Of a DNA stretch of 64,000 nucleotides, positions 1,132-14,341 are shown piece after piece. Under the pieces are notes generated by a model. That model did not search any database and was not told the DNA's origin. It saw only the letters and a program-made list of their open reading frames with translations. This DNA comes from Marinomonas sp. TW1. Lineage in GTDB: Bacteria; Pseudomonadota; Gammaproteobacteria; Pseudomonadales; Marinomonadaceae. The DNA is taken from assembly GCF_001625355.1 (NCBI RefSeq), contig NZ_JSEE01000009.1, forward strand, positions 62,001-126,000. The letters are read 5' to 3'. Position 1 is the first letter of the stretch, and each line of letters begins with the position of its first letter. A program made the translations under genes and the position numbers.

Positions 1132-3186
1132 CTACATGACGCGTTGACCAGGTTTGGCGCCAGCATGTGGTTCCAGTAGGTAAATTTCTTCACCACCAGG
1201 GCCTGCTGCTAATACCATGCCTTCTGATAAGCCAAACTTCATCTTGCGTGGTGCAAGGTTAGCAACCATGACCGTATATTTGCCTTCTAAATCTTCTGGC
1301 TTATAAGCTGACTTAATACCAGAGAAGACAGTGCGTGTTTCACCACCAATATCAAGGGTCAGTTTCAAAAGCTTGTTGGCTTTTTCTACATGCTCTGCTT
1401 TAGCAATTAATGCAATGCGCAAGTCCACTTTCGCGAAATCATCAAAATTGATTTCTGCTTCGAGAGGTTCTTTGCTCAATTCTGTTTCTTGTTGAACGTT
1501 TGTCACGGAAGGTGCTTTCGACGCAGCTTCGGCTGCGGCTTCCACCTTGCCTTCTTCAATCATGTCATCAATCTGTTTTTGCTCAATACGACCCATTAGA
1601 GGCTTGAATTTATTGATGGTATGGCCGAACAATAATTCTGAACGGTTGTCCCACGTTAGCGCTTTATTCAAGAAGGCTTCGGCATCGGCCACCATGTTTG
1701 GCATAACCGGTTTCAAGTAAGTTGCTAACACACTGAATAGATTCAAGGCGACAGTACAGACTTCTTGAACTTTAGGCAGTGTGGCTTCTTCTTTTGCCAA
1801 AACCCAAGGCGCTTGATCGGCAATGTAAGTATTCGCCACGTCAGCCAAACGCATGATTTCACGAACGGCTTTACCGTATTCACGGCTTTCAAAATGCTCG
1901 GCAATCACATCACCAGCATCAATGAAAGATTGAATCATGTCGTTTTCGCTGACCTCAGTAGCCAACTGACCATCAAACTTCTTAGTAATAAAGCTGGCGG
2001 TACGGCTGGCAATATTAACCACTTTACCTACTACGTCAGAATTCACTCGTTGGATGAAATCTTCTAGATTTAAATCAATGTCGTCGACGCTGGCGTTAAG
2101 CTTAGCGGCAAAGTAGTAGCGTAAGTATTGTGGGTCTAAATGGTTTAAGTAAGTACGCGCCTTAATAAAAGTGCCGCGTGACTTAGACATCTTGGTGCCG
2201 TTTACCGTGACATAGCCGTGGGCATTTACTTTCGTGGGGGTGCGGTAACCGGCGCAATCTAACATCGCAGGCCAGAACAAAGCATGGAAGTTGATGATGT
2301 CTTTACCGATGAAGTGGTAAAGCTCGGCGTCTGAGTCTTTTGCCCAGTAATCCTCGAAGTTTAGCCCTTCCGTGCGATCACACAGATTCTGAAAACTCGC
2401 CATGTAACCGATCGGAGCATCTAGCCATACGTAGAAATATTTGCCAGGAGCGTCTGGAATTTCAAAGCCAAAATAAGGTGCGTCACGGCTGATGTCCCAT
2501 TCTTGTAAACCGGAATCCAACCACTCGGCCAGTTTGTTCGCCACTTGGTCTTGTAAGGTGCCACTGCGAGTCCATTTCGCTAAGAAGTCTTGGAAATCGG
2601 GTAATTTAAAGAAGTAATGCTCGGACTCTTTTTCAATGGGTGTCGCACCAGAATACACTGAGCGTGGGTTGATCATTTCCATTGGCGTGTAAGTGGCGGA
2701 ACACACTTCACAGTTGTCGCCGTATTGGTCTTCCGCTTTACACTTAGGGCATGTGCCTTTGATAAAGCGATCTGCTAGGAACATTTCTTTTTCTGGATCG
2801 TAAGCTTGCACGATGGAACGTACTGAGATTTTGCCGTTATCACGCAGCGCTTTATAGATGCTGGTAGAAATGTCACGGTTTTCTTCTGAGTGAGTTGAGT
2901 GGTAGTTATCGTAACCAATCAAGAAATCATTGAAGTCTTTCATGTGCTCTTGGCGCACGCCTTCGATCAACTCTTCAGAGGTGATGCCATTTTGCTCCGC
3001 TTTAATCATAATGGCGGTGCCATGGGCGTCATCGGCACAAACCGCAGTACACACGTGCCCACGCATTTTCTGAAAACGCACCCAGATGTCTGTTTGGATG
3101 TGTTCCAGCATGTGTCCTAAATGGATAGATCCATTTGCATAAGGAAGGGCGCTGGTGACGAGTATTTTGCGTTGCGTTTGTGCCAT
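1132..3186 (-). CDS. metG: Methionyl-tRNA synthetase
   Basis: Charges tRNA-Met with methionine in the cytoplasm. 684 residues, the length of the dimeric E. coli-like form. The class I signature is HLGH at residues 22-25 (in [11 protein letters not shown]), the KMSKS loop follows at about residue 335, and between them is the zinc knuckle with CPKC and CEVC. The C-terminal part from about residue 580 ([15 protein letters not shown]) is the EMAPII/Arc1p-like tRNA-binding and dimerisation domain. The gene is divergent from mrp, with 224 bp between them. Nothing appears missing or unusual. Confidence 0.97.
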
Positions 3187-12197: not shown

Positions 12198-12800
12198 CTA
12201 AAATGTGTTTTCAAACACCAGTTCATCCACAGGAAGTTGTCCGCCACGGGGTTGTGCGGGTTTGGTGCCTTTGCCGATGGCCAGCATCATGACGATGACA
12301 TGGTCTTTTGGTAATTTGATGAGGTCAGCGACCTTGTCGAATTCGATGCCGATCATAGGGCTGGTGTTGTAGCCCATTTCTTCTGCGGCCAACATGAGAT
12401 TTTGCCCAGCCATAGCGCCAGAGCGAATGGCTTCATCTCTTTGTAGCCATGTCTTGCCTTGGTAGAAGTTTTCCAGCATGGACACTAGCATGTCTTGCGC
12501 CTCATTCGGGGCATTCTTCCAGTATCTTCTCGGGTTGTCGGACCAAGCTTGGGTATTCGCGACTATGATGACGAGTTCCGACGCGGCGCTGATTTGTTCT
12601 TGGTTCCAGGCGGCATGTTGGATTTTTTGTCGCTGTTGTTCATCGACCACGCGCACAAAACGCCAATGTTGAATATTGAACGAGGTAGGGGCCAGTATCG
12701 CGGCATTGATGAGTTTATGAAACGCTTGGTCCGACATTTTATGGTCGGGATCAAACTGTTTAATTGAACGTCTTTTCTCGATTAGATTGAATACACTCAT
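12198..12800 (-). CDS. Nitroreductase-family FMN oxidoreductase
   Basis: 200-residue flavoprotein of the nitroreductase superfamily, using NAD(P)H to reduce nitroaromatics, quinones or similar electrophiles. The start SVFNLIEKRRSIKQFDP carries the phosphate-binding Arg pair; APTSFNIQHWRFVRV and GAMAGQNLMLAAEEMGY are further family blocks, and the C-terminal GKGTKPAQPRGG closes the FMN site. The natural substrate is not visible. It is transcribed away from a LysR-type gene, 146 bp apart, with a LysR-like dyad in between, so that regulator very likely controls it. Confidence 0.9.
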   Translation of the reverse strand: MSVFNLIEKRRSIKQFDPDHKMSDQAFHKLINAAILAPTSFNIQHWRFVRVVDEQQRQKIQHAAWNQEQISAASELVIIVANTQAWSDNPRRYWKNAPNEAQDMLVSMLENFYQGKTWLQRDEAIRSGAMAGQNLMLAAEEMGYNTSPMIGIEFDKVADLIKLPKDHVIVMMLAIGKGTKPAQPRGGQLPVDELVFENTF

Positions 12801-12886: not shown

Positions 12887-12901
12887 TTGCGTTGTGCGCA
12901 A
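12887..12901. promoter_or_regulatory. Candidate LysR-type operator (T-N11-A dyad)
   Basis: TTGCG-TTGTG-CGCAA, a perfect 5-bp inverted repeat whose inner part fits the T-N11-A LysR box. It is 46 bp before the LysR-ASCH start and 87 bp before the nitroreductase start, the normal place for control of the divergent gene plus autoregulation. Confidence 0.55.
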
Positions 12902-12946
12902 TAATGAGGAATACTGTTTTCCATTAGTAAACAGAGGTTGGATATT

Positions 12947-14341
12947 GTGTTTGAAGCGATGGAGCAATTTGTGCGAGTGGTGGAATTAGGTTCCTTTAGC
13001 GCGGCGGCGGAGTCGTTAGGGAAAAAACCAAGCTCCATCACCAGAAAGGTCAATCAACTTGAACATGAAGTGAAAACCCAATTGCTGATTCGCTCGACTC
13101 GTCGACTTGATCTGACGCCAGATGGCGAACAGTTTTATAATCAATGCAAACAAATCTTGCAGTCCGTCCATGCTGCCAAGCACAGCTTTGTCAAAGATGA
13201 TGCTAAAGTCGATGGCCGTTTGGGTATTGCCACTTTTGATAGCGTAGGGCGGGGCGTTCTTGTGCCGCTCATCGCTCAATTTCGACAGAAGCATCCAGAC
13301 ACTAAGATTGCGATCAGTCTCGATAATAATTTGTCTGATCTTCATAAAGGGCCATTTGATTTGGCCATTCGATACGGGCGTCCTGATGACTCAAGTTTAC
13401 TTTTTCGGCCGTTAAGAAAGATGCCTAATGTGCTGGTTGCCTCTCCGTCTTATCTGCAACAGTCAGCTCCCATTGAATCGCCAGAGGATTTAAAATCTCA
13501 CGCTTGTTTGGCCTTCTATCGATCTCGTCAGCATGCTTGGTGGCATTTTAAAAAGGGAACTGAGTACAGAAAAATCCGCATTGATCCAATGCTCTCGTCA
13601 GAAGGTGGAACGCCCTTGTTGATGTGGGCTAAAGCGCACCAAGGTATTACTTTGGTGAGTAAGCTTTTTATTGAAGAAGATCTAAGAGACGGTCGTTTAG
13701 TTGAGGTATTACCTCATTGGCAAGCCTCACTGACAGAGCAAGATAGCGCCATGTTGTATCTAGTATGGAAACCGTCATCGGGACAAAAGCCCATTGTCAG
13801 AGCCATGATCAACGACATTGTCGCAGCGCTAAGTGACAGACCGAAAGAGTTTGTGATTGCTTTACCTGAGAATATGTCCTCATTATGTCAATCCTACCTA
13901 GCAAGCTATCTAAAACGTTTACCCAAGGCGCAAGCTGAGCAGTACTCTTCATTTAGTGCGGATTACTTTTGTGCCGATGAGGTCAATGCCAATCTTTGCG
14001 CTGAACTGATTTTGCGCGGTGAAAAGCGGGCTTCGTGTAGTATGGCGCATTGGTATCATCACGACGAGGAAGCGTATCCCCAAGTTGGGCATTTGCAAGT
14101 GGTTACCAACTGGCAGGGGCAACCGGTTTGTATCATTGAGACAACCCAAGTTAGCGAATGCCGCTTTAATGAGGTGACGGCCGAGTTTGCTGTGGCCGAG
14201 GGTGAGGGAGATAAGTCACTGGGCTGGTGGCGTGAGGCACACTGGGATTTCTTTTCTAAAGAATGTGAAGAATTAGACATTTCTCCAGCGGAAGATATGA
14301 TGCTGGTGTTGGAACACTTTAAACGCGTTTATCCGTTATGA
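12947..14341 (+). CDS. LysR-type regulator fused to a C-terminal ASCH domain
   Basis: The N-terminal 290 residues are an ordinary LysR regulator: winged helix in the first 60 (FVRVVELGSFSAAAESLG) and a periplasmic-binding-like effector domain. The remaining 150 residues are a complete YhfF-type ASCH domain with the GxK motif in RGEKRASCSM, then VGHLQVVTNWQGQPVCIIET and EGEGDKSLGWWREAHWDFF. One uninterrupted frame of 464 residues, against about 300 for normal LysR. ASCH domains bind RNA or modified nucleosides; E. coli YqfB, in this superfamily, hydrolyses N4-acetylcytidine. GTG at 12947 is preferred because AGAGG lies 9 nt before it; TTG at 12938 is possible. Confidence 0.85.
   Translation: MFEAMEQFVRVVELGSFSAAAESLGKKPSSITRKVNQLEHEVKTQLLIRSTRRLDLTPDGEQFYNQCKQILQSVHAAKHSFVKDDAKVDGRLGIATFDSVGRGVLVPLIAQFRQKHPDTKIAISLDNNLSDLHKGPFDLAIRYGRPDDSSLLFRPLRKMPNVLVASPSYLQQSAPIESPEDLKSHACLAFYRSRQHAWWHFKKGTEYRKIRIDPMLSSEGGTPLLMWAKAHQGITLVSKLFIEEDLRDGRLVEVLPHWQASLTEQDSAMLYLVWKPSSGQKPIVRAMINDIVAALSDRPKEFVIALPENMSSLCQSYLASYLKRLPKAQAEQYSSFSADYFCADEVNANLCAELILRGEKRASCSMAHWYHHDEEAYPQVGHLQVVTNWQGQPVCIIETTQVSECRFNEVTAEFAVAEGEGDKSLGWWREAHWDFFSKECEELDISPAEDMMLVLEHFKRVYPL

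Follow-up and report, generated by a model that had tools for sequence, protein, structure and literature searches.

The single open reading frame at 12947 to 14341 of the 64,000-nucleotide stretch of Marinomonas sp. TW1 DNA analysed here (the window) joins a LysR-type transcriptional regulator to an ASCH domain, and raises the question of whether the combination is a new sensing device or two neighbouring genes that have merged. An initial annotation, made from the sequence alone, described an unbroken frame from a full LysR protein into a full-length ASCH domain, a dyad upstream, and a fusion that might link the control of transcription with a nucleoside signal or with RNA. The domain identities, the frame and the operator-like dyad stand; the joint nucleoside or RNA function finds no support in what follows. 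The features of the locus are these:

12198 to 12800, minus strand: nitroreductase gene, divergent from the LysR gene (Pfam Nitroreductase, E 5.4e-31)
12887 to 12901, no strand: operator-like dyad TTGCG-N5-CGCAA (alignment of eight intergenic regions)
12947 to 13855, plus strand: LysR half, residues 1-303, wHTH and substrate-binding domain (Pfam; 95% identity to the LysR of locus L003)
13855 to 13873, plus strand: junction (alignments to the L003 LysR and the L037 ASCH)
13874 to 14341, plus strand: ASCH half (YhfF type), starting with the ATG that corresponds to the unfused L003 start and ending with the stop (86% to L003, 82% to L037)
14018 to 14041, plus strand: ASCH octapeptide GEKRASCS (consensus from PMC9599836)
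14319 to 15404, minus strand: convergent regulator of the Cupin_6/AraC type that shares 23 bp with the 3' end of the fused gene (Pfam)

The frame is a genuine fused open frame in the assembly. It has no internal stop from 12947 to 14341 on the plus strand, and its product of 464 residues is a complete LysR protein followed by a complete ASCH domain of what we take to be the YhfF type. Pfam finds HTH_1 (PF00126) at residues 3-61 (E 7.7e-18, 64.6 bits against a gathering cut-off of 26.6), LysR_substrate (PF03466) at residues 88-291 (E 1.1e-37, 130 bits against 28), and ASCH (PF04266) at residues 351-461 (E 5.7e-26, 91.7 bits against 21.2, spanning positions 7-102 of the 103-position profile). 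With both LysR domains above their gathering scores, the protein belongs among the LysR-type transcriptional regulators, and the full-length ASCH match, with 3S9X and 1T62 as relatives, assigns the second half to the ASCH domain, YhfF type. The initial annotation had named a stop near 13810 to 13860, or the lack of a profile match to ASCH after residue 300, as findings that would undo the fusion; the assembly sequence has no stop there, and the match lies where it was expected. Compared with the unfused LysR of L003, only the last residues are missing. As start codon, GTG at 12947 is better than the mechanical ORF start, TTG at 12938 (anti-SD energy -7.7 against 0), and the aligned GTG also begins the orthologue ORFs in L036 and L037.

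By sequence, the ASCH half matches PDB entry 3S9X with an E-value of 3.8e-66, with 1T62 also matched, and its model superposes on 3S9X with a target TM of 0.88. The LysR half matches 3HHG (CrgA; E 1.1e-32) and 3SZP and 3T1B (AphB; about 5e-30), while its modelled structure reaches a target TM of 0.31-0.39 to the CrgA and AphB chains; because that part of the model is poor, the fold of the LysR half rests on sequence. Across the whole model (mean pLDDT 64.9, pTM 0.36), the wHTH and ASCH domains are of fair quality and the LysR substrate domain of poor quality, so no reading is given of how the two halves are placed relative to each other; linker residues 297-309 have pLDDT below 50. The best NCBIfam match of the LysR half is YafC, and its score, 186 against a cut-off of 470, means that the protein is no YafC equivalog.

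Several known systems resemble the fused protein in part. The LysR-type regulators, with CrgA and AphB as the nearest solved relatives, share with it the wHTH and substrate domain, and the divergent neighbour gene and putative T-N11-A-like site found here fit that group; the window protein has an extra C-terminal ASCH domain. The YhfF-type ASCH proteins represented by 3S9X and 1T62 are alike in having the full-length domain, and GEKRASCS itself also occurs in 3S9X; this ASCH is a stand-alone gene in the 20 other rows compared, whereas in the window it is the C-terminal part of a regulator. The available text of PMC7641849 describes fusions of XRE-family HTH domains to ASCH in (PIN)-GNAT-EVE operons, thought to bind modified DNA. 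These likewise join a DNA-binding domain to ASCH; the window fusion differs in having another HTH family and other neighbours, in occurring in one genome only, and in having no PADLOC match. The domain families are known and a DNA-binding domain with ASCH has precedent in these XRE fusions; LysR-ASCH was seen once in these searches. LysR regulators with other companion domains are also on record, 24 kinds in 761 genomes according to the accessible part of PMC5882156.

The origin of the fusion is best seen in its relatives. Marinomonas aquiplantarum (genome G005, locus L003, NZ_QNRF01000003.1) is the closest found, with 95% identity in the LysR half and 86% in the ASCH half. There the LysR gene (308 aa, with its own stop) and the ASCH gene (155 aa) are separate, on the same strand and in the same order, 783 bp apart; many stops lie between them, and the spacer (L003 5919-6701) holds ORFs of 66 and 67 aa that by eye are lipoprotein-like. 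In a second genome, G040 (locus L037; LysR 83%, ASCH 82%), the genes are also separate, about 2.8 kb apart, with genes of 612 aa and 139 aa between them, which from their sequences we take to be nucleotidase-like and GNAT-like, respectively. The window, G005 and G040 are the three genomes with both genes among the matches listed; they share the LysR-ASCH order, the AraC gene after it, and the gene after that, presumably NmrA-like. G028, with a LysR 92% identical, has other genes after LysR, and its whole genome yields no ASCH match. The DNA after the LysR gene differs in gene content among L003 (5919-6701), L036 and L037, and so looks like a variable site.

At the junction itself, homology to the L003 LysR runs gap-free to 13854 and then ends. 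Homology to the L037 ASCH, taken codon by codon, starts at 13862 and continues with no gaps, 71 of 99 bases being equal over 13862-13960 (14 of 25 in 13862-13886), which leaves about seven bases between the two homologies. These observations make it likely that two neighbouring genes merged in a lineage-specific fusion, with the LysR half acting as the unfused regulator does and ASCH carried as a passenger. Because the closest relatives keep the pair apart, the fusion probably arose by accident in a single lineage rather than as a new sensing device. In the ancestor, a LysR gene and a YhfF-type ASCH gene would have shared a strand, separated by variable DNA, an arrangement still seen in M. aquiplantarum and G040; in the window lineage the intervening DNA and the LysR stop codon would have been lost, and the two frames would have met in phase. 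The simplest reading of the junction is that the spacer and the LysR stop were lost in one step, probably by deletion rather than by some other rearrangement.

The same junction bears on whether the joining occurs in the assembly only, a one-base error there hiding the LysR stop of what are truly two genes a few bases apart. TGA stands at 13854 and 13867 in the other two frames, with the ATG at 13874 right after, so that a single indel would split the gene into a tidy pair; the fusion rests on one assembly, and when the ASCH side is aligned locally to L037 with gaps allowed, the alignment, which starts at 13861, contains three one-base gaps, one base net. Such an error is nevertheless unlikely. 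The gap-free alignment to L003 up to 13854 speaks against it on the LysR side, and on the ASCH side the gap-free codon alignment makes the gaps of the local alignment unneeded. No run of four equal bases occurs in 13830-13890, and the junction is well within a contig of 188,984 bases.

The census of domain architectures called for in the initial annotation found the fusion in the window only, among the matches listed in four samples: 48 genomes for the genus (the family-level sample is the same 48), 390 for the order, 398 for the phylum and 369 for the class, with one genome per species and with partial overlap between the samples. Among the matches listed in the genus, a LysR orthologue with at least 57% identity is present in 8 genomes including the window, the next LysR rows falling to about 36% identity or less, and one of the 8, the window's own, is fused. 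A YhfF-type ASCH with at least 61% identity is found among the listed matches in 19 of the 48, the window included, and in none of the 18 others is a LysR joined to it. The order sample, in which about four candidates were scored per genome, gives a match covering both halves in the window only among the matches listed for its 390 genomes; a further orthologue there, the LysR of G302 (58%), likewise ends with the LysR part. ASCH matches occur in 69 of the 398 phylum genomes (89 matches listed, 9 of them with a frame of at least 300 aa, including the window), and in the other 8 long frames Pfam finds no match to LysR. In the class sample, 24 of 369 genomes have a match (28 rows listed), and the frame is at least 300 aa in 2, the window and G1033. 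A recurrent LysR-ASCH family was therefore not found among the listed matches of the four samples, and no LysR-ASCH fusion in print was found in the open-licence literature searched.

Candidates for further fusions were examined individually. Five of the long ASCH frames (L042, L043, L045, L047, L048) have no second Pfam domain, and the remainder is read as stop-free DNA beside an ASCH gene. L049 has EVE and ASCH matches that are both below the Pfam cut-off, and no LysR. The frame of G1033 (L050, 1764-3416, 551 aa) is by eye a RuBisCO-like protein with no LysR; its ASCH match, at the start of the frame, is partial and weak (24.3 bits). A wide LysR match in G001 (query 5-380) has three TGA codons inside and belongs to an ordinary 310-aa LysR frame ending in a stop, and a weak one in G010 that runs past the LysR part (query 2-342) contains six stops. 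The other order LysR matches with frames above 400 aa end by query residue 325, among the matches listed. Listed open-frame values, such as 726 for G005 and 747 for G015, are not always stop-to-stop: G005 has stops between its two genes, and the LysR frame of G015 is 336 aa.

Two of the long frames do combine ASCH with another complete and unrelated domain. In L044 (G643; frame at about 1322-2332, plus strand) Pfam finds a GNAT acetyltransferase joined to ASCH, and in L046 (G775, minus strand) it finds ASCH and a PrmC-like methyltransferase in one frame. They resemble the window fusion in this respect; their ASCH partners are enzymes, whereas the partner in the window is a LysR regulator.

A divergent nitroreductase gene is present at all 8 LysR orthologue loci, the window included. 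The dyad noted in the initial annotation (TTGCGTTGTGCGCAA, 12887-12901) is present, and the comparison of loci supports it. The dyad block aligns at the same place in the 8 intergenic regions, where the block around TTTTGCGT..CAA is the best conserved; the strict pattern TTGCG-N5-YGCAA occurs at 6 of the 8 loci, the exceptions being L038 and L041. LysR regulators bind the pattern T-N11-A, which TTGCG-N5-CGCAA fits, and they usually control a divergent gene and their own. The dyad and the divergent nitroreductase point to predicted control of the nitroreductase gene and of the LysR gene itself. Since the nitroreductase and the operator-like site recur, the LysR half most likely still does its unfused job with ASCH tethered to it. 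The fused product would bind the TTGCG-N5-CGCAA site and control the divergent nitroreductase gene and itself, and ASCH would be a C-terminal passenger now expressed from the promoter of the regulator. PADLOC, run for signs of a defence system on the fused protein and on the nitroreductase and AraC genes, matched none of the three.

Both halves look functional from their patterns of substitution, or else the fusion is recent, this being a single fused sequence. The ASCH comparison uses 20 other rows, equal to 19 loci (L004 and L023 are the same locus; L029 is partial). At invariant ASCH columns the window keeps 57 of 57, with 2 changes in 59 for L003 and none in 57 for L037; at columns invariant among the 7 LysR orthologues it keeps 135 of 137, with 135 of 135 for L003 and 135 of 138 for L037. 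Measured pairwise against L003, dN/dS is 0.046 in LysR, 0.126 in ASCH and 0.081 in the nitroreductase. When L037 serves as outgroup, 8 LysR and 6 ASCH changes fall on the window branch and 3 LysR and 11 ASCH changes on the L003 branch, with 4 unassigned in each half. An ASCH half that keeps all 57 columns and changes less than that of L003 is unlike a decaying passenger; under a very recent fusion an intact ASCH half would look the same. The extra LysR change on the window branch (8 against 3, and 2 of the 137 columns) could be adaptation or chance.

The octapeptide of the ASCH half bears on its possible activity. The consensus given in PMC9599836 is G-X-K-X-X-[ETS]-X-R. In the GEKRASCS of the window the Lys is present, Ser replaces Thr, and Ser also stands at the place of the consensus Arg. 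The available text of PMC6972931 reports N4-acetylcytidine hydrolysis by YqfB, for which Lys21, Thr24 and Glu74 are the proposed triad; in that enzyme an Arg26Ala variant is inactive while Thr24Ser is still active. By motif comparison, then, the fused ASCH departs from the YqfB-type amidohydrolase pattern (Lys21, Thr24 and the essential Arg26) in lacking the Arg, and it is this missing residue, needed by YqfB, that weakens the nucleoside idea. Ser at the Arg place is shared with 3S9X, 1T62 and all 20 other ASCH rows, and thus belongs to the YhfF type rather than to the fusion. When the YhfF set was aligned by profile with the YqfB-like protein encoded in this genome, the result was not significant (probability 1.2) and left the octapeptide uncovered. 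The literature searched, as far as it is openly available, gives YhfF-type proteins no function; for an ASCH protein of Zymomonas, a ribonuclease activity has been reported (PMC5615036, in the part available). The genome of the window has a second ASCH match, stand-alone and YqfB-like, at G000:C41:174430-174726 (locus L002, 1501-1797). Its octapeptide is GKKTITLR, which by motif makes it a better candidate than the fused ASCH for N4-acetylcytidine hydrolysis.

With these results in hand, it is improbable that the fused protein is a two-input regulator, in which ASCH senses a nucleotide, a modified base or RNA, or acts as an enzyme tethered to the promoter. Both halves are intact and conserved, and the XRE HTH-ASCH fusions and the LysR proteins with other companion domains offer parallels for such a device. 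Against it, the orthologues are unfused, none of the other 18 genomes in the genus that have a YhfF-type ASCH joins it to LysR, and the architecture does not recur in the order, phylum and class samples, in each case among the matches listed. By our own reckoning, about one third of junctions would be in phase after loss of DNA of unknown length, so that an open frame by itself does not indicate selection. The coupling to a nucleoside or RNA signal suggested in the initial annotation finds no support: the genes are neighbours but separate in the two other genus genomes with both among the matches listed, the architecture does not recur in those samples, and the octapeptide is without its Arg.

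A gene that works as two, with a separate ASCH protein still made from the ATG at 13874, is quite improbable. The ATG aligned with the unfused start has been retained, and its anti-SD energy of -3.0 equals the median found for 345 ATGs taken at random from the window, whereas the aligned ATG has -4.2 or lower in 17 of the 20 other rows (L004 and L023 counting as the one locus; L017 is without a start codon). The nearest unfused genes are weak too, at 0 for L003 and, for L037, -1.3 for the aligned ATG and -3.2 for the one upstream, so that a weak site at 13874 is compatible with its use and the anti-SD test is a weak one. It is very improbable that selection in this lineage has fixed a novel type of LysR regulator whose PUA-like ASCH domain sets nitroreductase expression by reading a nucleotide, a modified base or RNA.

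The probable merger of two neighbouring genes offers a clear snapshot of a new domain architecture arising, its parent genes still unjoined at the same place in close relatives. Were the ASCH half to take part in regulation, LysR regulators would gain an input of a new kind; nothing here points in that direction. For any domain architecture seen once, sister species deserve a check before a joint function is proposed.

Two minor observations concern the surroundings of ASCH genes. Across the 20 rows, most covering about 1.5 kb on each side, there is no single constant partner gene; the commonest neighbours, leaving out ASCH itself and overlapping frames, recur in 6 of 20 and are, as we name them from sequence, EAL-type and glutaredoxin-like proteins. 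The convergent ASCH and AraC genes overlap by 23 bp in the window (14319-14341), by 23 bp in L003 (7147-7169) and by 29 bp in L037 (11692-11720).
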